Shown here piece by piece: positions 5,875 to 26,306 of a DNA stretch of 36,437 nt. Each line of letters begins with the position of its first letter. Positions within the stretch are counted from its first letter, which is position 1. Made by a program: the position numbers and the translations under genes. The notes below the pieces were generated by a model. The model made no database searches, was not told the origin of the DNA, and saw only the letters and a program-made list of their open reading frames with translations. The DNA is taken from NCBI GenBank assembly GCA_029009515.1, contig JAQXJZ010000115.1, positions 1-36,437 on the forward strand, read 5' to 3'. The stretch comes from a bacterium (GTDB lineage Bacteria; Bacillota; Clostridia; Christensenellales; Aristaeellaceae).

Positions 5875-5903
5875 CATGCTATGTCGGCTGCCGCTGTGCG
5901 TGC
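5875..5903 (-). promoter_or_regulatory. Sigma-K-like promoter of the small Arg-rich gene
   Basis: Minus strand: GCAC (5903-5900) and CATAGCATG (5883-5875), with 18 bases from the A of AC to the C of CATA. This is the same geometry as the cotJ, murA and dpaA sites, and its -35 shares the palindrome GTGCAC (5900-5905) with the cotJ promoter. Confidence 0.55.
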
Positions 5904-5930
5904 ACACAACCCGACGGGACACATAGGTTG
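5902..5930 (+). promoter_or_regulatory. Sigma-K-like promoter of the cotJ operon
   Basis: GCACA (5902-5906), 15 bases, CATAGGTTG (5922-5930). This fits AC-N16-CATAnnnTA except the last base. It has the same spacing and nearly the same bases as the sites before murA and dpaA. B. subtilis cotJ is known to be mother-cell expressed (sigma-E). Confidence 0.65.
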
Positions 5931-5980
5931 ATCATGCGGAGTTCATCCGCACCCATCCTCAGAGAAAAGGAAGGATTGGT

Positions 5981-6376
5981 ATGCAGCATCAGCATTCCAA
6001 CTGCCATACCGGCAGCGTTGGTATTGTATACGGCTGTGAGCAGCGCTTTTCGCAGGTGTATCCTGCCCAGGTCGCGCTGCGCAGCGGCACGCTTTTTCCG
6101 GAACTGAACAAACCCATGGCCTGCGCCGCCGCGCCTACGGGCTGTGCGGAGCCCACGCCCCAGCAGGCGTCTGCCTTTGCTGCGTGGGAGATGAGGCTGT
6201 ATCTCAACACCCATCCCAACGACGAAAGCGCGCTGCAGATGTTTGAACAGATCTGCCGCCAAACCCATCAGCCCAACTATGCCTGCACCTTTGCGCCCTG
6301 CGTTCACAATGGCTGCTGGACATGGATTCAGGACCCGTGGCCATGGGAACTGGAAGCAAACGAAGGGAGGGCGTGA
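5981..6376 (+). CDS. CotJA-CotJB fusion, spore coat protein
   Basis: A 131-residue protein in which two normally separate small coat proteins are joined. Residues 13-46 match CotJA (SVGIVYGCEQRFSQVYPAQ, then ALRSGTLFPELNKPM). Residues 66-125 match CotJB (AWEMRLYLNTHPNDESAL near the start, and the hallmark WTWIQDPWPWELEAN at the end). A Cys/Pro/Ala linker of about 20 residues separates them. Eight cysteines are present, which is unusual for the family and suggests cross-linking or metal binding. CotJA, CotJB and CotJC form an inner-coat complex in B. subtilis. AAGGAAGGA at 5967-5975 sets ATG 5981. cotJC starts four bases after the stop, so they form an operon. The frame is intact, so this is not a frameshift artefact within the window. 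Confidence 0.85.
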   Translation: MQHQHSNCHTGSVGIVYGCEQRFSQVYPAQVALRSGTLFPELNKPMACAAAPTGCAEPTPQQASAFAAWEMRLYLNTHPNDESALQMFEQICRQTHQPNYACTFAPCVHNGCWTWIQDPWPWELEANEGRA

Positions 6377-6380
6377 AGCG

Positions 6381-6980
6381 ATGTTTGTCTATGAGAAGAA
6401 ACTGCAGTATCCGGTGCGCATCACGCGCCCGGACGCCCGGATGGCCAAGGCCATCATCAGCCAGTACGGCGGGCCGGACGGCGAGCTGAGCGCATCGCTG
6501 CGTTATCTCAGCCAGCGTTTTTCCATGCCGCACAGGGAGCTCAAAGGGCTGCTGACCGATATCGGCGTGGAGGAACTGGGCCATTTGGAAATTGTGGGCG
6601 CGATGGTTTATCAGCTCACGCGAGGATTGAGCGAAAAGCAGATCAAGCAGGATGGATTTGACGCCTATTTCACCGATCATGCGCAGGGCGTGTATCCGCA
6701 GGCAGCAGCCGGTTTTCCGTATACGGCGGCCACCATCGCGGTCAAGGGCGATCCCATCACCGATCTGCACGAGAATCTGGCGGCCGAGCAGAAGGCGCGC
6801 ACCACCTACGAAAACCTGCTGATTCTGGCGGATGACCCGGATGTGAAGGATGTGCTGCGCTATTTGCGCCAGCGTGAGATTGTGCACTACCAGCGTTTTG
6901 CCGAGGGGCTGGAGATTGTGAAGGATCATCTGAACGAGCGCAACTTCTACGCCTTCAATCCTTCACCGAGTGTAAAGTAA
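6381..6980 (+). CDS. cotJC: Spore coat protein CotJC, manganese catalase family
   Basis: A 199-residue protein, the typical CotJC length. All five ligands of the dinuclear manganese site of manganese catalases are in place: Glu35, Glu65, His68 (VEELGHLE), Glu136 (LAAEQKAR) and His169 (REIVHYQR). The family decomposes hydrogen peroxide, and in spores CotJC sits in the coat with CotJA and CotJB. The start is ATG 6381, preceded by GGGAGGG inside the end of the fusion gene. A strong terminator follows the stop. It is probably transcribed in the mother cell from the sigma-K-like promoter at 5902-5930. Confidence 0.93.
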   Translation: MFVYEKKLQYPVRITRPDARMAKAIISQYGGPDGELSASLRYLSQRFSMPHRELKGLLTDIGVEELGHLEIVGAMVYQLTRGLSEKQIKQDGFDAYFTDHAQGVYPQAAAGFPYTAATIAVKGDPITDLHENLAAEQKARTTYENLLILADDPDVKDVLRYLRQREIVHYQRFAEGLEIVKDHLNERNFYAFNPSPSVK

Positions 6981-6995
6981 TATTCTAATGAAGAA

Positions 6996-7030
6996 AAAGC
7001 CCGGCCGCAGTGGCCGGGCGAGTTGCTTTT
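6996..7030. terminator. Terminator between cotJC and the CAP-domain gene
   Basis: GCCCGGCC (7000-7007) pairs with GGCCGGGC (7012-7019) around a 5-base loop, with an A-run before it and a T-rich stretch after it. It probably works for both converging genes. Confidence 0.85.
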
Positions 7031-7721
7031 ATCGCACAAACAGCTGCGTTACGTACACGTAGCCCTGAGCATCTGTCCACACACCGATGCCCACTTTGCT
7101 CCATTGGGAGCCCATCATATTGCGGCGGTGACCGTCGCTGCTGAGGAAGGCGGCGTGGGCTTTTGTGACCGTGGCGTGGTGGGCGATGTTTTCCGCCACG
7201 GAAACGAAGCTGTAGCCAAAGTGCCTGAGCATCTCCGAAGGAGAGCCGTAGGTGGGGGAGGTGTGGGAAAAATAACCCTTCTCATACATGTCCTGGCTCT
7301 TCATGCGGGCGATGTCGCACAGCCGGGCGTCCAGCCGGAGTGCGGGCAGGCCGTTGGCAATCCTGTCCTGATTTAGCAGATTAAATGCATTTTCCTCTTG
7401 CGCGCTTATGGAAGGCGTAGTATAATCATCGTCGTTAGCAGGAGGAGTCGTTGTCGCTTGAGGCTTTTGAGTTGCCTGAGGCGCTTTTGTCGCGTTTGGC
7501 GTGGCAGTCGGCACAGGGGACGGTACCGCCGTGGGTTCTGCGGTGGGAACGAGGGTCGGCTGGATGGAGGGCGCAGGCGTAGGACAGAGAATGCTCTGCC
7601 GGTACGGCCATCCTTTGAAACCGAACTGCGACGTGGGCTTTCCGGAAGCGGCTGCATATGCGCCGCTGGTCGAAAGGCTCAGGGCAAGGACGAGGGCAGT
7701 CAGCTTTTGTTTCTTGTTCAT
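7029..7721 (-). CDS. Secreted CAP-domain (SCP/YkwD-like) protein
   Basis: Starting at ATG 7721 (GGAGG at good spacing upstream) this gives 230 residues. There is a signal peptide (MNKKQKLTALVLALSLSTSGAYA), then a Pro/Thr linker (about residues 45-105, with repeats such as PTAEPTAVPSPVPTATP) and a C-terminal CAP domain. The CAP motifs are LLNQDRIANGLPALR, YFSHTSPTYGSPSEML, the His/Glu pair in SVAENIAHH, and SSDGHRRNMM, then KVGIGVW. This is the YkwD branch found in many spore formers and secreted by Clostridia; its molecular role is unsettled. It converges with cotJC at a shared terminator and has no other operon partner. Confidence 0.9.
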   Translation of the reverse strand: MNKKQKLTALVLALSLSTSGAYAAASGKPTSQFGFKGWPYRQSILCPTPAPSIQPTLVPTAEPTAVPSPVPTATPNATKAPQATQKPQATTTPPANDDDYTTPSISAQEENAFNLLNQDRIANGLPALRLDARLCDIARMKSQDMYEKGYFSHTSPTYGSPSEMLRHFGYSFVSVAENIAHHATVTKAHAAFLSSDGHRRNMMGSQWSKVGIGVWTDAQGYVYVTQLFVR

Positions 7722-7741
7722 AAGATACCTCCGGAAGTGAA

Positions 7742-7759
7742 TTACGCCATATAGCGTAA
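7742..7759. promoter_or_regulatory. Inverted repeat in the leader of the CAP-domain gene
   Basis: TTACGC (7742-7747) and GCGTAA (7754-7759) flank the 6 bases CATATA. The dyad lies 21-38 bases upstream of the CAP gene start, where an operator or small leader hairpin would lie. I could not assign a clear -10/-35 around it. Confidence 0.4.
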
Positions 7760-7869
7760 CAAAATCGTAATAGTTCAGAAAAGAAATTGCAATAGAAATA
7801 CCAGTCCCTTTCCATGGCAATCTTTTCTGACACAAGCATAATCCCCAATCAATGAGGAGGAACCGGACT

Positions 7870-8274
7870 ATGAATCTCGTAAAATGCCCCCGCTGCGATC
7901 TGAATTATATCCTGGACACTGAAAAGCTGTGCAAGGTATGCCTTCGCGAAATGAAAGGCACGCACGTTGAGGATGAGATGGAAATGTGCTCTGTGTGCAA
8001 TGAAGCGCCTGCACTGCCCGGCCATGACGTTTGCCTGAGCTGCCTGAAGGAAATGAGCGGCAGCAATACCGATACCGCGATTGAAGAAAACCCCGCTTCC
8101 GTGGATGAAAGCACCATCGGTCTCAACTCCGTGAGCACCATGGACGAAATCATCCCCCAGATGCACGAGGACATCCCCGAGGGCGAGTTTGACGACATCG
8201 AAGACGAACTGTCGCTGGAAAGCGTCATCGAAGAGGAAGAAAACGAAGAGAACGAGGAAGACGACGAAGACTGA
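7870..8274 (+). CDS. Small double zinc-ribbon protein with acidic tail
   Basis: 134 residues starting at ATG 7870, chosen because AGGAGG lies at 7855-7860, which excludes the earlier in-frame ATG at 7852. Four CxxC pairs are visible: Cys6/Cys9, Cys21/Cys24, Cys40/Cys43 and Cys55/Cys58, arranged as two zinc ribbons (CPRC...CKVC and CSVC...CLSC). After residue 60 the chain becomes very acidic, ending in a run of Glu/Asp/Asn. Such a layout suits a protein that binds zinc and a basic partner, for instance a nucleic-acid-binding or ribosome-associated protein, but I cannot name a function. A metallophosphoesterase gene starts 19 bases after its stop, so the two are likely co-transcribed. A weak promoter-like pair, TGGCAA and CATAAT, lies at 7815-7842. 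Confidence 0.75.
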   Translation: MNLVKCPRCDLNYILDTEKLCKVCLREMKGTHVEDEMEMCSVCNEAPALPGHDVCLSCLKEMSGSNTDTAIEENPASVDESTIGLNSVSTMDEIIPQMHEDIPEGEFDDIEDELSLESVIEEEENEENEEDDED

Positions 8275-8293
8275 ACTGCAAAGTGAGGTACGA

Positions 8294-8986
8294 ATGTCTG
8301 TATTTGCCATTGGCGATCTCCATCTGCCCGGCCATGAGCAAAAGCCCATGGACGTCTTCGGCAGTCACTGGGATCGCCATTTTGAAACCATCAGCGAACA
8401 CTGGCGCGCAGCGATTACCGATGAGGACGTTGTGCTCATCCCCGGCGACATCAGCTGGGCCATGCAGCTGAGCCAGGCTGCGGATGATCTGAATGCCATT
8501 GCCTGTTTGCCCGGCACCAAGCTGCTGCTGCGCGGAAACCATGACTACTGGTGGAGCTCGCTGAGCAAGCTGCGCGCTGCCCTGCCCCCAAGCATGCACG
8601 TCATTCAGAACGACGCCATGTGCATCGGCGGCCATGTGTTCTGCGGAACCCGCGGATGGAACTTTCCCACGCCTCAGCAGGCGTTGGATGGACAGGATGA
8701 GAAGGTCTACCGCCGCGAACTGATGCGTCTGCGCATGTCGCTGGATCAGGCCAGAAAACTGGGCGGCGAGGATGTGACGGTTATGCTCCACTTTCCGCCT
8801 CTGTTTGCCGATGGCGTCGGAACGGCCTTTACCGAGATTCTCGAAGAGTATCAGGTGGATCATGTGGTGTACGGCCATCTGCACGGTCTGGGCATCAAGA
8901 TCGGTTTTGAGGGAGAGCGCGAGGGCATCCAGTATCATCTGGTTTCCTGTGATGCGTTGGGTTTTCATCCCAAAAAGATTTTCTGA
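8294..8986 (+). CDS. Calcineurin-like metallophosphoesterase (COG1768-type)
   Basis: 230 residues from ATG 8294 (GTGAGGT upstream). The metallophosphoesterase motifs are in order: FAIGDLHLPG (Asp8, His10), PGDISWAM (Asp52), LRGNHDYWW (Asn82, His83), MLHFPPL (His166) and VYGHLHGLG (His195, His197), which together bind two metal ions. The family hydrolyses phosphomonoesters or phosphodiesters; the short cytoplasmic form with GDISWA and GNHDYWW resembles the predicted phosphohydrolases of COG1768. It is linked to the upstream zinc-ribbon gene by close spacing. Physiological substrate unknown. Confidence 0.88.
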   Translation: MSVFAIGDLHLPGHEQKPMDVFGSHWDRHFETISEHWRAAITDEDVVLIPGDISWAMQLSQAADDLNAIACLPGTKLLLRGNHDYWWSSLSKLRAALPPSMHVIQNDAMCIGGHVFCGTRGWNFPTPQQALDGQDEKVYRRELMRLRMSLDQARKLGGEDVTVMLHFPPLFADGVGTAFTEILEEYQVDHVVYGHLHGLGIKIGFEGEREGIQYHLVSCDALGFHPKKIF

Positions 8987-9039
8987 TTCTGATTATTAAT
9001 TTTTAGAAATCTTTTATTAATAAAAATGTAATATTTGAT

Positions 9040-9057
9040 TGCGAACGAGCGTTCGCA
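9040..9057. promoter_or_regulatory. LexA/DinR-like SOS box 1
   Basis: CGAACGAGCGTTCG (9042-9055) fits the Gram-positive LexA consensus CGAAC-RNRY-GTTCG at every position, and one base pair more extends on each side. It lies between the phosphoesterase stop and a terminator, just after a TAATAT that could be a -10. The whole gene-free stretch 8987-9287 holds this box, a terminator, a second box, the mraZ promoter and G-rich repeats. Confidence 0.55.
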
Positions 9058-9060
9058 CGT

Positions 9061-9101
9061 CCCGCAAACCTTTGTAAATAAAGGGCTTGCGGGGATTTTT
9101 T
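9061..9101 (+). terminator. Terminator after the metallophosphoesterase gene
   Basis: CCCGCAA (9061-9067) pairs with TTGCGGG (9087-9093), and an inner CCTTT (9069-9073) pairs with AAAGG (9080-9084). A run of six T follows (9096-9101). Confidence 0.85.
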
Positions 9102-9119
9102 ATGTGCCCATCCATTGTG

Positions 9120-9135
9120 GCGAACTGTTGTTCGC
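9120..9135. promoter_or_regulatory. LexA/DinR-like SOS box 2
   Basis: GCGAAC (9120-9125) and GTTCGC (9130-9135) with a 4-base spacer TGTT. The half sites are perfect, but the centre deviates from RNRY. It is 64 bases upstream of the mraZ -35. On the minus strand a TTGACA (9170-9165) lies just upstream of it. Confidence 0.5.
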
Positions 9136-9198
9136 ACAAATACACATTTTCTGTGATGCAAATATGTCAAAATGGAAGAAGAAGGAAAAGCGCGCGCA

Positions 9199-9228
9199 TT
9201 GACTTTCCCTGAAAAGGTGGGGCATAAT
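9199..9228 (+). promoter_or_regulatory. Sigma-A promoter of mraZ and the dcw cluster
   Basis: TTGACT (9199-9204), an 18-base spacer and CATAAT (9223-9228), about 60 bases before the mraZ start codon. Confidence 0.7.
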
Positions 9229-9242
9229 GGTGTCACAACCCT

Positions 9243-9275
9243 AAAAAGGGTGCAAAGTGGAGGCAAAAGGGGAGC
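9243..9275 (+). promoter_or_regulatory. MraZ-box-like direct repeats in the mraZ leader
   Basis: Three A-then-G-rich units follow each other about every 10 bases: AAAGGGTG (9245), AAAGTGGAG (9254) and AAAAGGGGAG (9265). MraZ is known to bind short G-rich direct repeats before its own gene (AAAGTGG type in mollicutes, TGGG type in E. coli). The last unit also provides the ribosome binding site, so autoregulation by MraZ is plausible. Confidence 0.5.
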
Positions 9276-9287
9276 GGGGTGACGGCA

Positions 9288-9791
9288 ATGGATGAGCAGA
9301 TGCATATGGACGCCAGCGCCGCCAGCGAGCGCCGCACGCCCCGAAAGTTCACTTTTTTCGGCAGTTACGACCATTCCATCGACGCCAAGGGCCGCATTAT
9401 CATCCCCAATGCGTACCGCAAGGCGCTGGGAGACAGCTTCACATTGACCCTTACCCTCGACGACCGCGCCATCGCCATCTATCCCGACGCCGCTTTTGAA
9501 GAGATGGTGGAGGCTCTCTACCGCCTCAACCGCCGCAAGCCCTCCGTGCAGCGTCAGCAGGATCACATCGCCAAGTTCAGCTATCCCGGACTGCAGGCGG
9601 ATAATCAGGGCCGTGTGCTTCTGCCGGCCAAGCTGCGCCAGTACGTGCTGGGCGACGCCAAGGACGTGGAAATCAGCGGCGCGCTGGACCATGTGCGCAT
9701 CATCGACAGCGCCGCCGGTCTGGAAGAGGACACCTACTATAAGGAACACCGCGATGAAATAGCCGATGATATCGCGGAACTGGAAGAATAA
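9288..9791 (+). CDS. mraZ: Transcriptional regulator MraZ
   Basis: 167 residues when started at ATG 9288; a GTG at 9279 in the same frame (AGGGGAG four bases upstream) is the alternative. Two SpoVT/AbrB-like repeats are visible: FGSYDHSIDAKGRIIIPNAYRKAL early, and FSYPGLQADNQGRVLLPAKLR later, each with the D-x-K/Q-GR-hydrophobic-P core. MraZ forms rings that bind direct repeats upstream of the dcw operon and control it. The N-terminus is about 22 residues longer than in B. subtilis MraZ, where the protein starts next to the first repeat. In most Firmicutes rsmH (mraW) follows; here the next gene is ftsL-like. Confidence 0.92.
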   Translation: MDEQMHMDASAASERRTPRKFTFFGSYDHSIDAKGRIIIPNAYRKALGDSFTLTLTLDDRAIAIYPDAAFEEMVEALYRLNRRKPSVQRQQDHIAKFSYPGLQADNQGRVLLPAKLRQYVLGDAKDVEISGALDHVRIIDSAAGLEEDTYYKEHRDEIADDIAELEE

Positions 9792-9811
9792 AATGAGAAG
9801 GAGGAACGGCC

Positions 9812-10426
9812 ATGTCTCAGTACGAACCGATGTACGACAGCTTTCGCCGCGCCCCCGCTGAAGGATATGTTCCCTCTGCACGCATGACCGTTTCTGCCAG
9901 CGTTTATCTGCCCGGCAGCGAAGTGGACATGTACACCGGCCAGCTCAAGCCCGATCATCAGCGCCGCCGCCGTATGCAGGCCAAGAAGCTGGAACAGGCC
10001 AGGCTGGAACGCGAAGAAAAGCGCCAGCAGGAAGCCTATGAGAAAGAAATGAGCAAGGGCGGCGTGCGCGTAACAAGGTTTACGGGCATACTGACCATTG
10101 CTGTGTTGATGTTTGTGTGCGGTCTGATGGTTCTGTACCAGCAGGGCCAGATTGCCAGCCGCCAGAAGGAAATCAACCGCATCGAACGCGCCATCACCGA
10201 GTGCCGCAAAACCAACGAAGAACTCAGCACGCAGGTGGCTGCCGCTTCTGATCCCGCCGTCATTTGCTACGCAGCTTCCCAGCGCCTCAACATGATCCCC
10301 TCCGAAGCCGCCCATGCCATCCATCTGACGGCCGTGGATACCCGCCCGCTGGAAAACGCTTCTCAGCCCGTGGTGGTGACGGCGCAGACGCAGAACACGC
10401 CCGTGCCCATGCTGGCCAGCAACTGA
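9812..10426 (+). CDS. ftsL: FtsL-like division protein
   Basis: 204 residues; ATG 9812 has AAGGAGG just upstream. The layout is that of FtsL/DivIC bitopic proteins. A long charged cytoplasmic part (residues 1-88, with a Lys/Arg/Glu-rich helix at 50-80) is followed by one membrane helix (FTGILTIAVLMFVCGLMVLY, 90-109) and then an extracytoplasmic coiled coil (110-150). A short closing motif with family character, AASQRLNMIPSEAA, comes next. The last 35 residues are a Thr/Pro/Gln-rich tail. FtsL forms a complex with FtsQ/DivIB and FtsB/DivIC and activates FtsW-FtsI at the septum. It lies between mraZ and the PBP2-type transpeptidase, the usual place for ftsL. Sequence identity in this family is low, so the call rests on layout and position. 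Confidence 0.85.
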   Translation: MSQYEPMYDSFRRAPAEGYVPSARMTVSASVYLPGSEVDMYTGQLKPDHQRRRRMQAKKLEQARLEREEKRQQEAYEKEMSKGGVRVTRFTGILTIAVLMFVCGLMVLYQQGQIASRQKEINRIERAITECRKTNEELSTQVAAASDPAVICYAASQRLNMIPSEAAHAIHLTAVDTRPLENASQPVVVTAQTQNTPVPMLASN

Positions 10427-10460
10427 TTTTGTCTCATCTGCACCAGAATGTGCGAAATAC

Positions 10461-10489
10461 GCATACAGCGCCCGTGACGTGCATACATC
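10461..10489 (+). promoter_or_regulatory. Weak sigma-E-like promoter candidate before the ftsI/spoVD-like gene
   Basis: GCATAC (10461-10466), 14 bases, then GCATACATC (10481-10489). CATACA agrees with the sigma-E -10, but the -35 match is poor. B. subtilis spoVD is known to be sigma-E dependent. If used, transcripts would begin near 10495, inside the hairpin at 10489-10511. Confidence 0.3.
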
Positions 10490-10511
10490 CCTTTTATGAA
10501 ACATAAAAGGG
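10489..10511 (+). other. Hairpin that overlaps the ribosome binding site of the ftsI/spoVD-like gene
   Basis: CCCTTTTATG (10489-10498) and CATAAAAGGG (10502-10511) form a perfect 10-bp stem with loop AAA. The 3' arm includes part of the GGGGGAAG ribosome binding site of the GTG start at 10521. RNA reading in from ftsL would hide the site. No T-run follows, so it is not a terminator. Confidence 0.65.
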
Positions 10512-10520
10512 GGAAGTGCC

Positions 10521-12644
10521 GTGCCGACCGAACTGCATATCCGCAAACGGGTTTTTGCGCTGCTGATGCTGCTGGTGTTTCTGTTTTCGCTGCTCATGCT
10601 GCGCATCGTGTATCTCACCACCGCTCTGTCGGCGGATCTTACCCGCAGGGGTGTGCGCCAGTGGACGCGGGAAGGCACGGTGTATGCGCGGCGCGGAAGC
10701 ATACTGGATGCAAACGGACAGACGCTTGCGATGAGCGCCACCGCCTACATCGTCAGCGCCGATCCACGAAAGATATCGGACATGTCTTTGTTTACACAAA
10801 CGATATGTCCGATTTTGGATTTGAACGAGGAGAACACGGCGCAAAAGCTGCAGAACAAAACCCGCGCCTCTGTCACCCTGAAAAGGCAGGTTTCGCGCGA
10901 AAAGGCGGATGAGCTGCGCAAGCTGCAGCTGAGCGGCTCCGAAGCGGTGAAGAAGCAGCTGGAAGCGCTCCTGTTTGACGAGGATGTGCGGCGCGTGTAT
11001 CCGCGCGGCGCATTCCTTGCGCAGACGCTTGGGCTGACCAACATTGACAGCGTAGGGCAGTCGGGTCTTGAGATGCAGTACGAAACGCTGCTCAAGGGCA
11101 TGGAAGGCACCATTCTGCGCAGCGTGGACGGCCAGTCGCAGCCCATCTATGACAGCCAGAACCTTTACATCGAGCCGCAGAACGGCAACGATCTGGTTCT
11201 GACCATCGACGCCGCCATTCAGGAAATCTGCGAAAAAGCCATGCGCGAATGCTATGCCGTCAACAAGGCGCAGGCCGTGCATGTCATCGCTATGGATCCC
11301 TACACCGGCGCGATTCTGGCCATGTGCTCCAAGCCGGATTACGATCCCAACCAGCCGCCGCGCGAGCAGGCCGACGCCCTTTCGCAGCTGATGCGCATCC
11401 GGCTGATCTCCGACGCTTACGAGCCGGGCTCCACCTTCAAGATCCTCACAGCAGCCGCAGCGTTGGATGCCGGTGTGACCACGCCGGAGGATTCCTTCTA
11501 CTGCTCGGCCAAAATCAAGGTGGATGGCGATACCATCCGCTGCTGGGGGAATCCGCACAAGGATGAGACCATGGCCGAAGCACTCCAGAACAGCTGCAAC
11601 CCCGTGTTTGTCGAACTGGCCCTGCGGCTTGGCACGCAGCGCATGTATCAGTATCTGCATGCGTTCGGCCTGGGCAGCAAAACCAATGTTGACTTGCAGG
11701 GGGAGGGAAGTGGTATACTGATAGCGGAGCGGAACGTCAAAAATGTGGATTTGGCACGCATTGGCTTTGGCCAGAGCGTAGCCGTAACGCCCATTCAGCT
11801 TTTGACGGCTGCCTGTTCCGTTGTCAACGGCGGCAGACTCATGCAGCCCTATCTGCTCAAGGAGGCTGTTTCGCCGGATGGCACGGTGCTCTACCGCAGC
11901 CAGCCCAGAGTGGTCAGCCATCCCATCAGCGAGGAAACCAGCCGTACGATGCGCACCCTGCTGGAGAAGGTGGTGTCCATCGGCGGCGCGAAGAACGCCA
12001 AGGTGGAAGGCCAGCGCATTGGCGGCAAGACCGGTACGGCGCAGGTGTACAAGGAAGGGCGCATCGTGTTGGATGTGCACATCGGCTCCTTTCTGGGCTT
12101 TGCTCCGGCGGATGATCCGCGCATTGCGCTGCTGGTGATCGTGGACGAGGCGGATACGCCCGTGGATTACGGCGGCACCACCGCCGCGCCTTTTGCTGGA
12201 CAAATCCTTGCGGATGTGTTACCGTATTTAGGTTATCCTCCGGCTGGCGATGAACGCCTGGAAAAGGTGGAAGTGCCGGATGTGACCGGGCTTTCCCTTG
12301 CGCAGGCGCGCAGCCGCATGGCGCAGGCGGGATTCCGCGTGCTGGATGACGGCGCGGGCAGCACCGTGACGGCGCAGATGCCCGCCGCGGGAGCACAGCT
12401 CGTGGAAGGCGGACAGGTGATGCTGTATACCTATACGCAGGATCTGCCCAAGCCTGAGGAACTGGTATGCGTACCCGATGTCAAAGGACAATCGCTGGCG
12501 CAGGCGGCCACGCTTCTTCGCCAGCGGGGACTGGATATGATGATCGACGGGGCAGGCTTTGCCGTCCGTCAGGAGCCGGCGGCAGGCGAATACGCCGCGC
12601 AGGGTTCCGTGGTAAAGGTTACGTTTGAATGGCTCAATCCATAA
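10521..12644 (+). CDS. Class B penicillin-binding protein 2 with two PASTA domains (FtsI/PBP2B/SpoVD type)
   Basis: 707 residues starting at GTG 10521. One N-terminal membrane anchor (VFALLMLLVFLFSLLML) is followed by the PBP dimerisation region (YARRGSILDANGQTLA) and the transpeptidase domain. That domain carries SxxK at Ser304 (GSTFK), SxN at Ser358 (SCN) and KTG at Lys503 (GGKTGTAQV). Two PASTA repeats close the chain (about 583-637, VEVPDVTGLSLAQA, and 649-706, VCVPDVKGQSLAQA). The enzyme cross-links septal peptidoglycan with its partner SEDS protein (the ftsW-like gene nearby). It cannot be told whether it acts in vegetative division (PBP2B), in cortex synthesis (SpoVD) or in both; PBP2B of B. 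subtilis has two PASTA domains and SpoVD one. Its start is covered by a hairpin. Confidence 0.93.
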   Translation: MPTELHIRKRVFALLMLLVFLFSLLMLRIVYLTTALSADLTRRGVRQWTREGTVYARRGSILDANGQTLAMSATAYIVSADPRKISDMSLFTQTICPILDLNEENTAQKLQNKTRASVTLKRQVSREKADELRKLQLSGSEAVKKQLEALLFDEDVRRVYPRGAFLAQTLGLTNIDSVGQSGLEMQYETLLKGMEGTILRSVDGQSQPIYDSQNLYIEPQNGNDLVLTIDAAIQEICEKAMRECYAVNKAQAVHVIAMDPYTGAILAMCSKPDYDPNQPPREQADALSQLMRIRLISDAYEPGSTFKILTAAAALDAGVTTPEDSFYCSAKIKVDGDTIRCWGNPHKDETMAEALQNSCNPVFVELALRLGTQRMYQYLHAFGLGSKTNVDLQGEGSGILIAERNVKNVDLARIGFGQSVAVTPIQLLTAACSVVNGGRLMQPYLLKEAVSPDGTVLYRSQPRVVSHPISEETSRTMRTLLEKVVSIGGAKNAKVEGQRIGGKTGTAQVYKEGRIVLDVHIGSFLGFAPADDPRIALLVIVDEADTPVDYGGTTAAPFAGQILADVLPYLGYPPAGDERLEKVEVPDVTGLSLAQARSRMAQAGFRVLDDGAGSTVTAQMPAAGAQLVEGGQVMLYTYTQDLPKPEELVCVPDVKGQSLAQAATLLRQRGLDMMIDGAGFAVRQEPAAGEYAAQGSVVKVTFEWLNP
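10775..10813. repeat. Inverted repeat inside the PBP2 coding sequence
   Basis: ATCGGACAT (10775-10783) and ATGTCCGAT (10805-10813) are perfect 9-base arms, with a second pair TTTGT/ACAAA in the 21-base interval. The codons here (ATA, TTG, ACA, CAA) are less GC-rich than in the rest of the gene. Confidence 0.5.
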
Positions 12645-16539: not shown

Positions 16540-16569
16540 GCGCATGCGCAACGCCCCTTCCTGCATGGG

Positions 16570-16604
16570 AAGAGATGCTCACCAAAGACAACGCATCTTT
16601 TTCG
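16570..16604 (+). terminator. Possible attenuator between murD and the ftsW-like gene
   Basis: AAGAGATGC (16570-16578) can pair with GCATCTTTT (16593-16601) with one G-U pair, and the 3' arm ends in a T-run. The loop is 14 bases and the stem moderate, so partial read-through into ftsW is likely; no promoter is visible between the two genes. Confidence 0.4.
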
Positions 16605-16623
16605 ATGGAGGGAGGGGAGTTTT

Positions 16624-17739
16624 TTGATTCAAAGGACATCTGTAAAACGCAGACCGGTGGACCGCACGCTGCTGACCATTCTGGCGCTGCTGCTGATGGG
16701 CGGGGTGCTGACGCTGTTCAGCGCCACGTATTACAAGGCGCTTGATCACGGCGATGCGCTGCTGGAAGTGAAAAGGCAGCTGATCGGCATAGGTCTTGGC
16801 GCGGTGCTGATGACCATCACCAGCCGCATTCCGTATGCTTTCTGGCGGGATCCGCGCGTGGTGGTGGCCGGGCTGGGTGTGAGCTTTGCGCTGCTCATTC
16901 TGGTGCTCATTCCTGGCATCGGCGTGCATCTGAATGGATCGCGAAGGTGGATCTACATTGCGGGCATGAGCTTTCAGCCTTCCGAAGTAGCCAAGATCGC
17001 CTCGGTGCTGTATCTGGCCTCCACGCTCAGCTTTCGCCTGAAACAGGTGGAAAAGCTGTGGAAGGGCATTGTGCCGCTGCTGATTGTGCCAGCTGTGATG
17101 TTTCTGCTTATCCTCGAGCAGCCCAACCTGTCCACGGCGGGCAGCATCATGATCGTGGCGGTTTTGATGATGCTGCTGGCCGGGGCCAGGTGGAGCCATC
17201 TGACGCTGATGGGCGTAGCTGGGCTGTGCGTGGGATCCGTCTATGCGTGGATCGAGCCTTACCGGCGCGAACGCCTGCTCAGCTTCCGCGATCCCTTTGC
17301 GCAGATGAGCGACGAGGGCTATCAGCTGGCGCAGTCGCTGATCGCCATTGGTTCCGGCGGCCTTTTCGGACGCGGGCTTGGGCAGGGCAGGCAGAAGTTC
17401 AGCTTTCTGCCGTACCCGGAAAGCGACTTCATCTTTGCCATTGTGGGCGAGGATTTCGGGCTGTTCGGATGCGTGGTGGTCATCCTGATGTTCATTGCCT
17501 TTGCGTTTGCGGGCATGCGCATTGCGGTGAGCTGCCCGGACCGCTATGGCTGTCTGCTGGCCGCAGGACTGACCGCCATGATCACCGTGCAGGCGGCGCT
17601 GAACATCGCTGTGGTGATTGGCGCAATGCCCACCACCGGTTTGCCGCTGCCGTTTTTCAGCGCGGGCGGCACATCGGTGAGCCTGCTGATGGCGTCGGTG
17701 GGCATCATTCTCAGCGTGTCGCGCACAAGCGCGCTGTAA
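16624..17739 (+). CDS. ftsW: SEDS-family peptidoglycan glycosyltransferase FtsW/SpoVE
   Basis: 371 residues, starting at TTG 16624 after a long purine-rich ribosome binding site (GGAGGGAGGGGAG). Ten membrane helices are expected. Family motifs: HLNGSRRWIYIAGMSFQPSEVAKIA, where the conserved acidic residue of SEDS enzymes lies in a neighbouring loop; the long QLAQSLIAIGSGGLFGRGLG; and FLPYPESDFIFAIVGEDFGLFG. Near the end comes TTGLPLPFFSAGG. SEDS proteins polymerise lipid II together with a class B PBP, here probably the product of 10521-12644. The gene is called ftsW by cluster position; a spoVE-type role in cortex formation is equally possible. Confidence 0.92.
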   Translation: MIQRTSVKRRPVDRTLLTILALLLMGGVLTLFSATYYKALDHGDALLEVKRQLIGIGLGAVLMTITSRIPYAFWRDPRVVVAGLGVSFALLILVLIPGIGVHLNGSRRWIYIAGMSFQPSEVAKIASVLYLASTLSFRLKQVEKLWKGIVPLLIVPAVMFLLILEQPNLSTAGSIMIVAVLMMLLAGARWSHLTLMGVAGLCVGSVYAWIEPYRRERLLSFRDPFAQMSDEGYQLAQSLIAIGSGGLFGRGLGQGRQKFSFLPYPESDFIFAIVGEDFGLFGCVVVILMFIAFAFAGMRIAVSCPDRYGCLLAAGLTAMITVQAALNIAVVIGAMPTTGLPLPFFSAGGTSVSLLMASVGIILSVSRTSAL

Positions 17740-17748
17740 ACGCACATT

Positions 17749-17776
17749 CACACCTTTTCCGTCATGGCATAGGATG
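17749..17776 (+). promoter_or_regulatory. Sigma-K-like promoter before murA
   Basis: CACA (17749-17752), exactly 15 bases, CATAGGATG (17768-17776). Bases and spacing are identical to the site before dpaA and differ by one base from the site before cotJ. A transcript would start near 17783, leaving a short leader with GGAGGTGG before the murA ATG at 17809. Confidence 0.6.
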
Positions 17777-17808
17777 GTGCATATGGAATGCTTGACGGAG
17801 GTGGAGCG

Positions 17809-19074
17809 ATGAACGCCTTGCGAATCCGCGGCGGCAGGCGCCTGGACGGCGAATGGAACATACATAGCGCCAAGAACGCGGTGCTGCCTATCATGGCAGC
17901 AGCCATCCTGACACAGGACAAAACCACGCTGGAGCGCTGCCCCAATCTCAGCGATATCCGCTACATGGGCGATATTCTGGAAACGCTGGGCTGCCGCGTG
18001 AAGCGGAGCGGTGATGTGATGGAGATTGATCCGGCCGGCTTGTGCCGGTATGAGATGCCGGATCAGCTGTCCAAAAAGATCCGCTCTTCCATCTTCCTGC
18101 TGGGGCCCATCCTGTCGCGCTTCCGCAAGGCGGCCGTCACCTTTCCCGGCGGCTGCGAGATCGGGCTGCGGCCTATCGACCTGCACCTGAGCGGCCTCAG
18201 ACAGCTGGGCGTGGATGTGCGCGAGGAAGGCGGGCTGATCCTGTGCGATGGACAGGGCATGCGTGCGGGAAATGTCCATTTCGATTATCCCAGCGTAGGC
18301 GCTACGGAAAATGTGATGATGGCTGCCGTGCTTCTGCGCGGAAGAACCACGCTGCACAATGCGGCGAGGGAGCCGGAGATTGCCGATCTGCAGTCCTTCC
18401 TGTGCCGCATGGGCGCAAGGGTTTCCGGTGCGGGCACGCATACCATTGCCATCGAAGGCGTGAACCGCCTGCATGGCGTGCATTATCAGCCCATGGCGGA
18501 CCGCATTGTGGCCGGTACGCTGATGGCTGCCGCAGCCGCTACCGGCGGAACGGCACATCTCACCAACGTGCCCTGCGGCGATCTGTGCGCGGTGTTTTCC
18601 AAGCTGCGTGAAATGGGCTGCGTGATCACCGAGAAGGAAAACGAGGCAATCCTGCACGCGCCCGCGCGCCTGAACGCCTTTCATCAGCTGCAGACGCAGC
18701 CGCACCCCGGTTTTCCCACGGATATGCAGGTGCAAATGCTGGCTTTGGCTGCATCGGCAAAGGGAACTTCGGTGATCGTGGAGAATGTATTTGAGAACAG
18801 GTTTACGCATGCGGGCGATCTGAACCGGATGGGCGCGGATGTGCTGGTGAACGGACGCACAGCGGTGGTCAAAGGGGTGCCAAAACTCTGCGGCGCACGG
18901 GTGACGGCAAGGGATCTGCGCGGAGGCGCAGCGCTGGCCATTGCGGCGCTTGGGGCAGAAGGTGAAACGATCATCGAGCATGCCCAACTCATCGACCGCG
19001 GATATGACCATCTGGAGGATATGCTTTGTGCGCTGGGCGCGGACGCCGTGCGCATGGAGATGAACACGCAATAA
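17809..19074 (+). CDS. murA: UDP-N-acetylglucosamine 1-carboxyvinyltransferase MurA
   Basis: 421 residues; ATG 17809 with GGAGGTGG upstream. It catalyses the first committed step of peptidoglycan synthesis, transferring enolpyruvate from PEP to UDP-GlcNAc. The N-terminal SAKNAVLPIMAAAIL, with the substrate-binding Lys-Asn, and the catalytic Cys116 in PGGCEIGLRPIDLH are present, as are PSVGATENVMMAAV and FPTDMQVQMLALA. Cys at this position is the residue modified by fosfomycin in known MurA enzymes. Many Firmicutes have two MurA copies. The copy here sits between ftsW and ftsQ, where murG or murB is more usual, and has its own sporulation-like promoter. ftsQ follows after 11 bases. Confidence 0.94.
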   Translation: MNALRIRGGRRLDGEWNIHSAKNAVLPIMAAAILTQDKTTLERCPNLSDIRYMGDILETLGCRVKRSGDVMEIDPAGLCRYEMPDQLSKKIRSSIFLLGPILSRFRKAAVTFPGGCEIGLRPIDLHLSGLRQLGVDVREEGGLILCDGQGMRAGNVHFDYPSVGATENVMMAAVLLRGRTTLHNAAREPEIADLQSFLCRMGARVSGAGTHTIAIEGVNRLHGVHYQPMADRIVAGTLMAAAAATGGTAHLTNVPCGDLCAVFSKLREMGCVITEKENEAILHAPARLNAFHQLQTQPHPGFPTDMQVQMLALAASAKGTSVIVENVFENRFTHAGDLNRMGADVLVNGRTAVVKGVPKLCGARVTARDLRGGAALAIAALGAEGETIIEHAQLIDRGYDHLEDMLCALGADAVRMEMNTQ

Positions 19075-21337: not shown

Positions 21338-21385
21338 TAACCGTCCTGCCACCGAAGAACAAAGATAAAGTAGGGGGAACGCACT

Positions 21386-22864
<1,479 letters not shown>

Positions 22865-22878
22865 GATTTCACATTTCC

Positions 22879-22911
22879 AAGCCCTGCCGAGTCAATCCGG
22901 CAGGGCTTTTT
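22879..22911 (+). terminator. Terminator of the dcw cluster after ftsZ
   Basis: AAGCCCTGCC (22879-22888) pairs perfectly with GGCAGGGCTT (22899-22908) around a 10-base loop; T-rich tail. Confidence 0.9.
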
Positions 22912-22953
22912 GCATACCCTTCCCAGCAGAAGAGTGGGGGGAGGGCGAGATAA

Positions 22954-23952
22954 ATGAAACACAGCATGGGCGCCGCTATCACCTGCACAGGCGCGGTGAT
23001 TGGTGCGGGATTTGCCTCGGGGCGCGAGGTGGTAACCTTCTTTAGCCGATATGGTGAAAACGCGTGGTGGCTGATCCTACTCTCAGTGGCCGTGATGGTT
23101 CTGCTGAGCTGCCTTTGCATGCTGGCTGCAAGAAAATGCGCTGCCGACGGATGCTGGTGCGCGCTGTTTGAAGCCGATGGAACCGGCGCCAGAATTTGCA
23201 CAGTGATGCTGCTGGTGCTCACTTCCGGCGCTATGGTTTCCGCTTCCGGCAGCCTGATGGCGCTGCTTTGGGCGCATCGGTGGGCATATTTCATTGGCGC
23301 GGCGGGAACGCTGATAACGGCGTGGGCGCTGGGGAGACGCGGCGTTCGATGGCTGGGATGGATCAGCACGCTGATGACGGCGCTGCTTTTTTTCGCGGTT
23401 GTGCTTGCCATGAGCCGCGCGCCTGAAATGGAAAGCGCACGGCTGATTCCTCACAGCGCGGATGGCTGGGCGGCGCTGCGCGCTGTGGGCTATGCTGCCA
23501 TGAACATGACGCTGGCCATCGGTGTGGTTTGCCGCTGCGCAAATGGCGGTTCCGCGCGGCGATTTGGCTGGGCGTTCGGCAGTATCATGGCCGTTCTCCT
23601 GTATACCAGCAATGCGCTGTATCTGCGCCATCCGGAGGTGCACAGCAGCGCCTTTCCCATTGTGGAACTGCTGCGCTGCCTTGGACGCAAAGGATTTCTT
23701 GTGAGCGTTGCTGTACTGTATCTGTCGGTGTTTACCACGATGACAGCCACGCTGTGCGCACTTGGCAGCGCTGTAAAAAGACCTGCAGCGGTGCTGATTC
23801 TGCCTCTTTTGGCCTCGTGCGCAGGGTTTTCCGGCATTGTGGATCGTCTGTACGCGCCTGCCGGGCTGATCTGTGTGCTGCTGGTGTTTGCGCCGCTTTG
23901 TTTGACACAAATACAAAGTGGTACAAAAGAAAGGCTTGACAATCTGGAGTGA
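22954..23952 (+). CDS. YkvI-like membrane protein (COG3949 type)
   Basis: 332 residues with about ten membrane helices. The N-terminal TGAVIGAGFASGREVVTFFSRYG (residues 12-34, best core GAGFASGRE) is characteristic of YkvI-type proteins, which are related to the APC/LeuT transporter fold with an unwound glycine-rich first helix. The substrate is unknown. ATG 22954 follows a GGGGGGAGGG ribosome binding site. The stop overlaps the promoter of the next gene, so the two are separate transcription units. It has no clear functional link to ftsZ beyond being downstream of its terminator. Confidence 0.85.
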   Translation: MKHSMGAAITCTGAVIGAGFASGREVVTFFSRYGENAWWLILLSVAVMVLLSCLCMLAARKCAADGCWCALFEADGTGARICTVMLLVLTSGAMVSASGSLMALLWAHRWAYFIGAAGTLITAWALGRRGVRWLGWISTLMTALLFFAVVLAMSRAPEMESARLIPHSADGWAALRAVGYAAMNMTLAIGVVCRCANGGSARRFGWAFGSIMAVLLYTSNALYLRHPEVHSSAFPIVELLRCLGRKGFLVSVAVLYLSVFTTMTATLCALGSAVKRPAAVLILPLLASCAGFSGIVDRLYAPAGLICVLLVFAPLCLTQIQSGTKERLDNLE

Positions 23953-23964
23953 ATCAAGTAGGAT
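23936..23964 (+). promoter_or_regulatory. Sigma-A promoter of the maltose phosphorylase gene
   Basis: A perfect TTGACA (23936-23941), a 17-base spacer, and TAGGAT (23959-23964). It overlaps the end of the upstream gene. I see no CRE or other operator palindrome near it. Confidence 0.75.
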
Positions 23965-24013
23965 AGTGACAAGGCTGTACAAACGATTGCACATCCGAAA
24001 GGAGTCCCTTGAT

Positions 24014-26272
24014 ATGAGCTTTGAAATCCATCCTTGGAAAGTGGTAGAAACTGCGCTGAACAAGGAGCATATGCGCCTGTCCGAAAGCCTCACCTCCATT
24101 GGCAACGGCTACATGGGCATGCGCGGCAATTTTGAGGAGGACTACACCGGCGATACCCATCTGGGCACCTACATCGGCGGTGTGTGGTTCCCGGACAAGA
24201 CCCGCGTGGGCTGGTGGAAGAACGGCTATCCACAGTATTTCGGCAAGGCCATCAACTGCGTGCGCATGAACGGCATCCGCGTGGAGGTCAACGGCACGCC
24301 CATCGACCTGGCCAAGGCGGACGTGCTGGATTTCTACCGCGAGCTGGATATGCAGACCGGTATTTTCCTGCGCCGCTTCACCCTGTGTACCCCGGACGGC
24401 AACATCCGCGTGGAGGCCGAGCGCTTTATGTCGCTTGCTCAGAAGGAGCTGCTGGCCATCCGCTACACCGTTACGCCCGAGTTTGCCGCTCACGTGGTCA
24501 TGAAACCCTATCTGGACGCCAATGTGCGCAATCTGGACAGCAACTATGACGAAACCTTCTGGGATATGCTGGCTGAGGAAGAGGGCGAGGACGGCGTTGC
24601 CATCCTGACCAAGACCAAGGAAAATCCCTTCGGCACGCCTCGCTTTGCCGTGGCCGCCGCCATGAGCTGCTGGGCTGACGGCATGGAGATGGAGCGCCGC
24701 AACATGCAGAGCGGCTATGCCGAGGCCGTGTATTCCGGCGATGTGGAAGCCTTCGAGAGCGCGTCCCTTGAAAAGTACGTGCTGTGCTTCACCAGCCGCG
24801 ATTACGAGCAGAAGGCGCTCACCACCATCGCTCTGCGCGCCGCTTCCCGCGCCCGCGAGCTGGGCTATGACGAGCTGCGCGACGCGCATGCCGGTGCGTG
24901 GAAGGATCGCTGGGCTGGCTGCGACGTGACCATCGAAGGCGACGACGCCGCGCAGCAGGGCATCCGCTTCAACCTCTTCCAGCTGCTCAGCACCTATTCC
25001 GGCGACGACGCCCGCCTCAATATCGGCCCCAAGGGTTTTACGGGCGAAAAGTACGGCGGCGCGACCTACTGGGATACCGAGGCCTACTGCCTGTCCGTGT
25101 ACATGGCCATCGCCGGTCAGGACGTGGCCAAGCAGCTGTTGCTCTACCGCTGGCTGCAGCTGGACGGCGCATATGAAAATGCCCGTCAGCAGGGTCTGAA
25201 GGGCGCGCTGTATCCCATGGTCACCTTCACCGGTGTGGAGTGCCACAACGAGTGGGAGATCACCTTTGAGGAGATCCACCGCAACGGCGCCATTTCTCAT
25301 GCCATCTTCAACTACGCCACCTATACCGGCGATTACGACTACATGCTCAAGGAAGGCCTGGACGTGCTGTGCGGCATCGCCCGCTTCTATACCGACCGCG
25401 TGCACTTCTCCAAGCGTCAGCAGAAGTACATGATCCACGGTGTAACCGGCCCCAATGAGTACGAGAACAACGTCAACAACAACTGGTACACCAACCGCAT
25501 CGCGGCGTGGAGCATCGGCCTGTTCGTGACGCAGGCACACCGCGCTTCTCAGGATCGTCTGGACAAGCTGGGCGTGACCAAGGAAGAGATCGCCCACATG
25601 CTGGATGTGGTGGAGCGCATGTATTATCCCGAGGACAAGGAGCTGGGCATCTTTGTGCAGCACGATACCTTCCTCGACAAGGATCTCATGCCTGTCACCG
25701 ATATTCCTGCCGGCGAGCGTCCCATCAACCAGCACTGGTCCTGGGATCACATCCTGCGCAGCTGCTTCATCAAGCAGGCGGACGTGCTGCAGGGCCTGTA
25801 CTTCCTCAATCATCTGTATGACGAGGATACCATCCGCCGCAATTTCGACTTCTACGAGCCCATGACGGTTCACGAAAGCAGCCTGTCTCCCTGCGTGCAC
25901 AGCATTCTGGCTGCGCAGCTGGGCTACCATGACAAGGCGGTGGAGATGTACCAGCGCACCGCGCGCCTCGACCTTGACAACATCAACAACGATACCGAGG
26001 ACGGACTGCACATCACCAGCATGGCGGGCAGCTGGCTGGCCATGGCGCACGGCTTTGCCGGCATGCGCACCACCGACGGCCTGAGCCTGAAGCCCTTCCT
26101 GCCCGACGCCTGGAAGGGATATGCGTTCCAGTTCCACTACCGCGGCCGCGTCATCCGCGTGAGCGTCAAGCCCGGCGAGGCTTGCGTGGAGCTGCTGGAA
26201 GGCATGCCGCTCACCCTCACCCTGTGCGGCGAGGAAATGAAGCTGGAAGACCGCATCGTGCACGCCCTGTAA
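24014..26272 (+). CDS. Glycoside hydrolase family 65 phosphorylase, probably maltose phosphorylase
   Basis: 752 residues from ATG 24014, with AAAGGAG upstream; the promoter position excludes earlier starts. It is probably cytoplasmic, having no signal peptide. The GH65 layout is clear: an N-terminal beta-sandwich (SLTSIGNGYMGMRGNF early), an (alpha/alpha)6 barrel and a C-terminal beta domain. The catalytic acid is Glu482 in HGVTGPNEYENNVNNNWYTN, a stretch very like that of Lactobacillus maltose phosphorylase. The phosphate-binding region near the C-terminus reads HITSMAGSWLAM. Maltose phosphorylase splits maltose with phosphate to glucose and beta-glucose 1-phosphate. Kojibiose or trehalose phosphorylase cannot be fully excluded. 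No beta-phosphoglucomutase gene is adjacent; it would be the expected partner. Confidence 0.85.
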   Translation: MSFEIHPWKVVETALNKEHMRLSESLTSIGNGYMGMRGNFEEDYTGDTHLGTYIGGVWFPDKTRVGWWKNGYPQYFGKAINCVRMNGIRVEVNGTPIDLAKADVLDFYRELDMQTGIFLRRFTLCTPDGNIRVEAERFMSLAQKELLAIRYTVTPEFAAHVVMKPYLDANVRNLDSNYDETFWDMLAEEEGEDGVAILTKTKENPFGTPRFAVAAAMSCWADGMEMERRNMQSGYAEAVYSGDVEAFESASLEKYVLCFTSRDYEQKALTTIALRAASRARELGYDELRDAHAGAWKDRWAGCDVTIEGDDAAQQGIRFNLFQLLSTYSGDDARLNIGPKGFTGEKYGGATYWDTEAYCLSVYMAIAGQDVAKQLLLYRWLQLDGAYENARQQGLKGALYPMVTFTGVECHNEWEITFEEIHRNGAISHAIFNYATYTGDYDYMLKEGLDVLCGIARFYTDRVHFSKRQQKYMIHGVTGPNEYENNVNNNWYTNRIAAWSIGLFVTQAHRASQDRLDKLGVTKEEIAHMLDVVERMYYPEDKELGIFVQHDTFLDKDLMPVTDIPAGERPINQHWSWDHILRSCFIKQADVLQGLYFLNHLYDEDTIRRNFDFYEPMTVHESSLSPCVHSILAAQLGYHDKAVEMYQRTARLDLDNINNDTEDGLHITSMAGSWLAMAHGFAGMRTTDGLSLKPFLPDAWKGYAFQFHYRGRVIRVSVKPGEACVELLEGMPLTLTLCGEEMKLEDRIVHAL

Positions 26273-26278
26273 CAACCG

Positions 26279-26306
26279 CACAACTTGTCGCCTCCCGCAT
26301 AGGATG
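26279..26306 (+). promoter_or_regulatory. Sigma-K-like promoter of dpaA-dpaB
   Basis: CACA (26279-26282), 15 bases, CATAGGATG (26298-26306). The same motif and spacing occur before murA and (one base different) cotJ. spoVF of B. subtilis is known to be sigma-K controlled. The expected start near 26312 lies beyond the 5' arm of the terminator hairpin, so this transcript keeps the ribosome binding site free. Confidence 0.7.

Follow-up and report, generated by a model that had tools for sequence, protein, structure and literature searches.

Within a 36,437-nucleotide stretch of DNA from a clostridial bacterium of the family Aristaeellaceae (positions 1 to 36,437, forward strand, of contig JAQXJZ010000115.1, assembly GCA_029009515.1; hereafter the window), one promoter-like sequence, CACA-N15-CATAGGWTG, stands before the cotJ operon, murA and dpaA, and the question that it raises is what kind of promoter this would be and what else is built around it. 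To judge by its letters, it is an ordinary sigma-K-type mother-cell sporulation promoter, AC-N16/17-CATAnnnT. What the initial annotation had overlooked is that, in predicted folds, the promoter at two of the three sites, those of dpaA and murA, is itself part of a hairpin that sequesters the Shine-Dalgarno site of the gene. Our reading, to which we give a probability of about 0.63, is that the sigma-K promoter sits within a lock on read-through RNA, and that a transcript started inside the lock at sporulation bypasses it.

The Motif and Its Promoter Class

The three sites, each a putative sigma-K-type promoter, are:

5903..5930, plus strand: before the cotJ operon (AC 5904-5905, N16, CATAGGTTG 5922-5930)
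17749..17776, plus strand: before murA (AC 17750-17751, CATAGGATG 17768-17776)
26279..26306, plus strand: before dpaA (AC 26280-26281, CATAGGATG 26298-26306)

The three exact copies, all on the plus strand, and their CATAGGWTG words at 5922, 17768 and 26298 were found where the initial annotation had put them, and its judgement that chance was an unlikely origin also held, the expectation under a first-order Markov model being 0.0017 exact matches in the window. On both strands, every CATAGGWTG word of the window (three in all) had CACA at that spacing, and in the whole assembly (175 contigs, 3,020,060 bases, 86% complete) the same three were the only exact matches, with none for the reversed pattern. 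Allowing up to two mismatches left a weak excess in the window, 4 versus 1.3 expected, with 7 of 100 shuffles as high. A scan of the genome and its relatives, which had been proposed as a check, gave 22 exact matches in 12 of 17 genomes of the genus (reversed control, 1): 12 before murA, four before dpaA, four before genes of a surface-like protein family and one before cotJ, so that 21 of the 22 upheld the association with genes, while the last (L007) did not. It sits where an M23/SpoIIQ-like gene (so named by eye) begins but faces away from that gene, with no recognised gene in its own direction, and looks like chance. Because the matches cluster by gene, they amount to about four independent gene families rather than 22 independent events. 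The closest named relative by DpaB was Candidatus Limiplasma stercoravium (75% identity; Clostridia, Eubacteriales incertae sedis), whose dpaA leader (L023) is identical to that of G016, and the genus is therefore probably that one.

Sigma-K promoters have 16-17 bases between a -35 AC and a -10 CATAnnnT, the last base of the -10 being A. The window sites have G at that last base and, at two of them, lie within a hairpin; these are the respects in which they differ. Otherwise the AC/CATAnnnT spacing is that of sigma-K promoters, known sigma-K targets lie downstream and the genome has a sigma-K gene. Across the genus, AC-N16-CATAnnATG was found before dpaA and before murA in 17 of 17 genomes each, with a spacing of N17 in two dpaA sites (G001, G011); the two bases after CATA vary among these sites (GG, AG, CG, TG, GT, GA), and AC, CATA and the spacing are kept. 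In C. difficile, sigma-K promoters have AC at the -35 and sigma-E promoters ATA, the -10 being common to both; dpaAB is read from a sigma-K promoter whose -35 is AC, and the Mn-catalase coat operons have sigma-K-like elements (PMC3789822). The window sites are thus like the sigma-K promoters of B. subtilis and of C. difficile dpaAB in their -35 AC, their -10 CATAnnnT and their target genes, dpaAB and Mn-catalase coat operons. A SigE-type gene was matched in 17 of the 17 genomes and a SigK-type gene in 16 (none in G008, which is 65% complete); all 16 SigK-type matches fell under the stricter TIGR02846 cut-off, the SigK subfamily model in G000 reached 273 bits against a cut-off of 252, and the two types were distinguished by model for one gene of each only. 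The form of the site and its neighbouring genes (dpaA and murA 17/17 each, cotJ 11/13, SigK-type gene 16/17) therefore fit the late mother-cell promoter that had been suggested.

The further suggestion of a lineage-specific form fared less well. When 80 dpaA loci of other Clostridia and Paenibacillus were fetched, of which 63 were scored (one of the 63, L023, being actually a genus member), AC-N15-18-CATAnnnT was present within 85 bases of the Shine-Dalgarno site in 51, and the same test in other genera of the family gave 22 of 26, which argues for the general sigma-K form. The exact pattern, with three matches in the genome, was also too strict for finding the whole regulon, as had been hoped. 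The looser AC-N16-CATAnnATG was tried for that purpose in G000 and rejected, since 11 matches versus 7 for the reversed pattern meant that it has little power alone.

A Predicted Hairpin Over the dpaA Shine-Dalgarno Site

26287..26339, plus strand: predicted terminator-like lock before dpaA (5′ arm 26287-26298, 3′ arm 26322-26333)
26337..27137, plus strand: dpaA (spoVFA; Pfam DpaA_N 48.1 bits; PRK08306 145 bits against a cut-off of 261)
27137..27724, plus strand: dpaB (spoVFB; NF006161 263 bits, over its cut-off; scanned as the longer open reading frame (ORF) 26972-27724)

At dpaA and murA the promoter forms the 5′ arm or the loop of the predicted hairpin, and the Shine-Dalgarno site lies in the 3′ arm. 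The dpaA case is the most compact: the 5′ arm (26287-26298) consists of the promoter spacer and the first base of the -10, and the 3′ arm holds the Shine-Dalgarno site (26325-26329) and is followed by a T-tract and the start codon, TTG at 26337-26339, as assigned in this analysis. The same arrangement recurs through the genus, the Shine-Dalgarno site being the 3′ arm in 17 of 17 leaders, with a T-rich tract after it and the start codon (mostly TTG, as assigned) in or just past that tract. Over the 17 genomes the 11 pairs of the hairpin were paired in 99.5% of 187 cells, a value reached by 0 of 500 shuffles and compared with 43-65% in slid controls, and three pairs had been altered on both sides, in 16 cells. 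The motif, its conservation, the predicted pairing and these compensatory changes are direct observations. Two of the five measures were not above the shuffles (pairs changed on both sides, 269/500; further pair types, 74/500), and the inner stem kept no single register.

The predicted cost of opening the dpaA Shine-Dalgarno site averaged 18.2 kcal/mol in read-through RNA versus 2.6 in the predicted transcript (17 genomes), which was taken as the RNA from 15 bases after the C of CATA, a start position assumed from the usual distance to the -10; with longer flanks, the mean unpaired probability of the site rose from 0.01 to 0.43. For 163 genes in 400 kb of G004 the background cost had a mean of 3.9 kcal/mol, a 95th percentile of 7.9 and a 99th of 14.1. 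All opening energies here are predictions, with gene starts chosen by a simple rule in assemblies mostly of many contigs, and several gene names rest on inspection by eye or on models under their cut-offs. A covariance model of the hairpin, run over 120 genomes drawn, recovered the 5 genus members among them at E-values of 3e-16 or better; its matches beyond the genus were weak (from 3e-8 up) and several fell on both strands, for which reason they are likely terminators. In other genera of the family, a lock was predicted at dpaA in 3 of 26 loci.

Other Genes with a Predicted Lock

17748..17805, plus strand: predicted hairpin between the -35/spacer stretch and the Shine-Dalgarno site of murA, GGAGG (17797-17801; start ATG 17809)
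17809..19074, plus strand: murA, cluster copy (TIGR01072, 488 bits)
10463..10488, plus strand: promoter of sigma-E-like form before spoVD (ATACA-N14-CATACAT; similarly arranged, by eye, in other genomes of the genus)
10488..10513, plus strand: predicted spoVD Shine-Dalgarno lock (arms 10488-10498 and 10502-10512; GGGGG; start GTG 10521)
16550..16626, plus strand: long, U-tailed hairpin predicted to sequester the Shine-Dalgarno site of ftsW/spoVE (start TTG 16624)

The genomes have three murA genes each, and the opening cost of the cluster copy averaged 8.9 kcal/mol in read-through RNA versus 2.9 in the predicted transcript (17 genomes), the mean unpaired probability rising from 0.18 to 0.35 with longer flanks. 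The pairing is made in two ways: in G012 and G004 a near-perfect anti-Shine-Dalgarno sequence stands beside CATA, and in the others a longer helix extends up to the CAC of the -35. At spoIVFA, named from its M23 domain and a downstream M50-protease-like ORF (by eye), the promoter is sigma-E-like and the costs were 15.2 versus 3.0 kcal/mol (mean, 17 genomes), with CATAnnnT between the arms in 16; the weakest case was G016 (8.6 versus 4.6), and in the other 16 the read-through cost was at least 11.7. The gene called spoVD (best-scoring model TIGR02214, with 603 bits against a cut-off of 688) has a hairpin containing the Shine-Dalgarno site directly after ATAnn-N14-CATACAT, which is sigma-E-like by eye, and the two RNAs differed by at least 4 kcal/mol in 13 of 14 scored leaders, the exception being G003, with no difference. 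By prediction, then, a hairpin that would block read-through translation by pairing the Shine-Dalgarno site is found strongly at dpaA, spoIVFA and spoVD and unevenly at murA.

Within the cluster the mean difference was 14.7 kcal/mol for dpaA, 6.7 for spoVD and 6.5 for murA, and near zero for mraY (-0.4), ftsZ (-0.1), ftsK (0.6), ftsQ (1.2), dpaB (1.4) and murE (1.8), where ftsQ was scored from 4 sequences, ftsK from 5, murD from 2 and ftsA from none. The ORF at 22954 reached 4 kcal/mol in 4 of 12. The hairpin before ftsW/spoVE had an opening cost of 7.8-17.1 kcal/mol (14 loci scored, 2 skipped); its inner stem is GATGC/GCATC, its loop is conserved as about nYACnAAAG (window 16550-16626; L271-L286), and it is possibly a separate RNA element. 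The layout of the locked leaders was also found in G000 before an unnamed gene of 151 amino acids (L152; G000:C29:5739), which stands behind a long hairpin with CATATCATG inside. Its product contains Cys and has no Pfam match, and the gene follows a TrmO-like tRNA methyltransferase ORF (by eye).

A wider association was sought among 802 sampled genes (1.58 Mb from G000, G004 and G007; gene calls by a simple rule, some surely false). CATAnnnT preceded 11 of 53 locked versus 33 of 749 other Shine-Dalgarno sites (p 5e-5), and still 7 of 47 versus 33 of 749 when six recognised cases were removed (p 0.007), p-values that treat the genes of three related genomes as independent; an earlier scan with a wider distance window had given 12/53 versus 28/749. 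Of the 11 other orders in which C, A, T and A can stand, none was enriched before locked sites in this sample, the lowest p being 0.11. Across the genus, CCTCC beside CATAnnATG gave 48 matches versus 18 for the reversed pattern, and among 30 of those loci a lock was seen at dpaA (five), murA (one) and an unnamed gene (one).

Read-Through and the Proposed Mechanism

The proposed mechanism starts from the placing of a promoter, sigma-K at dpaA and murA and sigma-E-like at spoVD and spoIVFA, within a hairpin that would pair the Shine-Dalgarno site with promoter-region sequence. RNA read through from a co-directional upstream gene would carry both arms, and the ribosome site would therefore be hidden; at dpaA and spoIVFA, the hairpin and its T-rich tract should terminate transcription too. 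RNA begun at the sporulation promoter would start in or after the loop, without the 5′ arm, and would be translated. We infer the start point, the use of sigma-K or sigma-E and the effect on translation. Spore genes may thus sit unexpressed in growth-time operons, and the lock may keep them silent while the neighbouring genes are read in growth.

Read-through into a locked gene takes a co-directional gene upstream. In the window, the gene before dpaA is of the GH65 family and the one before murA is ftsW/spoVE, each co-directional with its neighbour and within 70 bases of it. In the genus, a gene of the methionine-gamma-lyase family stands before spoIVFA and is co-directional with it in 16 of 17 genomes (by homology). 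In other genera, 3 of the 4 scored spoIVFA loci that have this co-directional neighbour showed the lock, versus 2 of 21 that lack it, the limit of at least 12 kcal/mol having been set after the values were seen (L419 has 11.8), with 25 of 27 loci scored and some starts doubtful; a fifth locus with that neighbour, L395, lies outside the scored set and folds into such a hairpin. The hairpin sequences in those genera look unrelated, which would suggest repeated origin.

The cotJ, Surface Protein and sigK Loci

5875..5902, minus strand: back-to-back promoter-like site, AC-N16-CATAGCATG (2 mismatches), facing a small minus-strand ORF
5981..6376, plus strand: CotJA and CotJB domains in one ORF of 131 amino acids (Pfam CotJB 52.1 bits, CotJA 33.7 bits)
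6378..6980, plus strand: cotJC, manganese catalase family (Pfam Mn_catalase 192.9 bits)

AC-N15-17-CATAnnnT was present before the cotJ operon in 11 of the 13 genus genomes with a cotJC match, and stood 72-79 bases before the called ORF start in 8 of these 11; it was missing in G003 and in G007, where the locus is near a contig end. Among nine scored cotJ leaders, those of the window, G004, G008 and G011 had no lock, and those of G005, G010 and G012 gained 2-4 kcal/mol. Four leaders of the surface-like protein genes, whose neighbour is divergent by ORF, gave 1.1-4.1 versus 0.0-0.4 kcal/mol, which is background and no lock. This family (L005, L017, L022, L004), grouped by eye, consists of ORFs of about 440 amino acids or longer that start like MATYTGVPYQDLRWQ and have the exact motif upstream; we take it to resemble choice-of-anchor A proteins, and its members are perhaps spore-surface proteins. 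A collagen-like (GPP-repeat) protein in L223 (minus strand, start 7827) has AC-N17-CATATGCTG upstream, and is perhaps encoded by an exosporium filament gene of the same regulon.

In the fused ORF of the window the Pfam matches to CotJA and CotJB fall at residues 21-45 and 63-123, and in several genus genomes (e.g., G004, G005, G009, G010) the ORF at that place has about 280 amino acids. In three genomes cotJC is split, with its pieces about 11 kb apart in G009, about 9 kb apart in G012 and on two contigs in G005 (L367/L371, L368/L372, L369/L373); between the pieces in G009 lie a large serine recombinase-like ORF (561 amino acids, by eye) and transporter-like ORFs (L420, L421). No cotJC element was named in the titles and opening parts of abstracts covered by our literature search. 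The end of sigK was readable in 14 genomes, and in six of them (G001, G006, G007, G010, G012, G014) the gene breaks off within its final helix-turn-helix, after SRSYV or SRSYVS, and runs into foreign sequence (L301-L306; L422, L425, L426). Near the cut-off genes of G001, G007 and G014 is a large serine recombinase-like ORF (534 amino acids, by eye), and in the near twin G015 sigK is whole; possibly an element of the skin type lies close to the 3′ end of the gene.

Weighing the Alternatives

Several results weigh against a lock built around the promoter. The lock is uneven at murA: the difference was below 4 kcal/mol in 5 of 17 genomes in the cluster-wide leader scoring, the gain in the opening-cost comparison was below 3 kcal/mol in G014, G001 and G015 and of the wrong sign in G013, and the helix changes register between species. 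The cotJ leaders of G006 and G009 are moderately locked (6.1 versus 0.3 and 7.5 versus 0.4 kcal/mol) by the promoter arm, which blurs the contrast with lock-free sites, and differences of at least 4 kcal/mol also occur in dpaB (1/13) and murE (3/14). No CATAnnnT was recognised inside the ftsW/spoVE hairpin, which the model leaves unexplained. An orientation test at dpaA failed because antisense ORFs were indistinguishable from genes. Finally, a plain terminator of the upstream gene would likewise give a stable hairpin at dpaA and spoIVFA, and it can be argued that all the hairpins are mere intrinsic terminators or coding-end structures of the upstream genes, with an overlap that comes from short intergenic space and a functionless hiding of the Shine-Dalgarno site. 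T-rich tracts do follow the dpaA and spoIVFA hairpins, stop codons of the upstream genes are nearby, and a terminator scan also called 26312-26327. However, the murA and spoVD hairpins pair the Shine-Dalgarno site without a T-tract, a terminator has no need of that site as its 3′ arm, which is nevertheless what every dpaA leader of the genus has, and CATAnnnT is enriched before locked sites in general; we regard this explanation as a lesser possibility of some weight. A second alternative, a sigma-K promoter and nothing more, with G-rich Shine-Dalgarno sites that pair by accident with the C-rich spacers facing them, seems quite improbable. Many sigma-K spacers are indeed C-rich, and dpaA in other lineages is mostly unlocked, with a difference of at least 5 kcal/mol in 10 of the 63 loci, the genus member L023 included, but dpaA and spoIVFA lie far past the background in the genus and the dpaA hairpin has its compensatory changes. 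Chance pairing is thus hard to hold for those two genes and possible for murA.

The murA site could also be read as a vegetative sigma-A promoter, TTCACA-N17-TAGGAT, with no part in sporulation. A consensus scan returned TTCACA-17-TAGGAT at 17747-17775 with 9 of 12 matches, and the murA sites retain a T-rich stretch ahead of CAC. The same scan, however, found 4 such sites in 10.9 kb versus 3.4 in shuffles, the CATAnnnT core is common to dpaA and cotJ, which lack the TTC, T before CACC also occurs at dpaA in Paenibacillus, and there are other murA genes for growth, so that we think this reading unlikely. Most improbable, in our estimation, is a regulatory RNA that acts in every transcript under the control of a riboswitch ligand or a protein, with CATAGGATG as its conserved loop in place of a -10 box. 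It would account for a motif in or beside the hairpin at two sites, and the ftsW/spoVE hairpin does have a conserved loop without a promoter match. Yet the motif also occurs without a lock, before cotJ in the window and before the surface-protein genes, the AC at dpaA is kept although it lies outside the stem, the promoter form is found before dpaA well outside the genus, and there was no Rfam family at gathering score in the window and nine loci.

Comparison with Known Systems

A lock formed on long RNA and escaped by a shorter one has precedents. In phage T4 late genes (e, soc) and in IS10/Tn10, the long RNA folds over the ribosome site and the RNA from an inner promoter does not; these differ from the locks of the genus in being phage or transposon genes with unrelated sequences and other polymerase forms. 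The sporulation precedent is B. subtilis sigG (spoIIIG), for which a hairpin of more than 20 pairs was proposed to block translation of spoIIG read-through RNA and to be unable to form in the RNA from PsigG (PMC5942855). The logic is the same, but sigG is one forespore gene, whereas the genus has at least three to four mother-cell genes with sigma-E-like and sigma-K-like promoters, known here from predicted folds, and at dpaA and spoIVFA a terminator-like tail and the start codon are merged into the lock. In the genus, sigG was not found downstream of sigE at four loci inspected by eye, where murG-like or other ORFs stood instead. In our literature search, which was thin in subscription papers, sigG was the only sporulation precedent found. 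By that search, three things appear to be new: that a single lineage uses the design several times over and with promoters of two types, that terminator, promoter, Shine-Dalgarno site and start codon overlap so densely, and that the growth genes next to the locked ones contrast with them.

Implications

On a broader scale, and tentatively, since we rate it at somewhat less than even odds, mother-cell genes of this lineage may be held silent in growth-time operons by some 60 bases that serve at once as terminator of the upstream gene, sporulation promoter, Shine-Dalgarno site and start codon, so that a message would be readable or not according to the promoter that was used. From one row of genes, the dcw cluster would then yield one set of proteins during growth and another in the mother cell; the rule would have been applied repeatedly, and other genera of the family would have evolved it anew, with different sequences, at the same genes. 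If this is true, the single proposed case of B. subtilis sigG would become a repeated, evolving design that is predictable from sequence, and RNA-level expression of such genes during growth need not mean protein. Leaders whose translation is gated by the choice of promoter would also be compact natural parts, and the design would offer a cheap route to the sporulation genes hidden in the vegetative operons of uncultured Clostridia.

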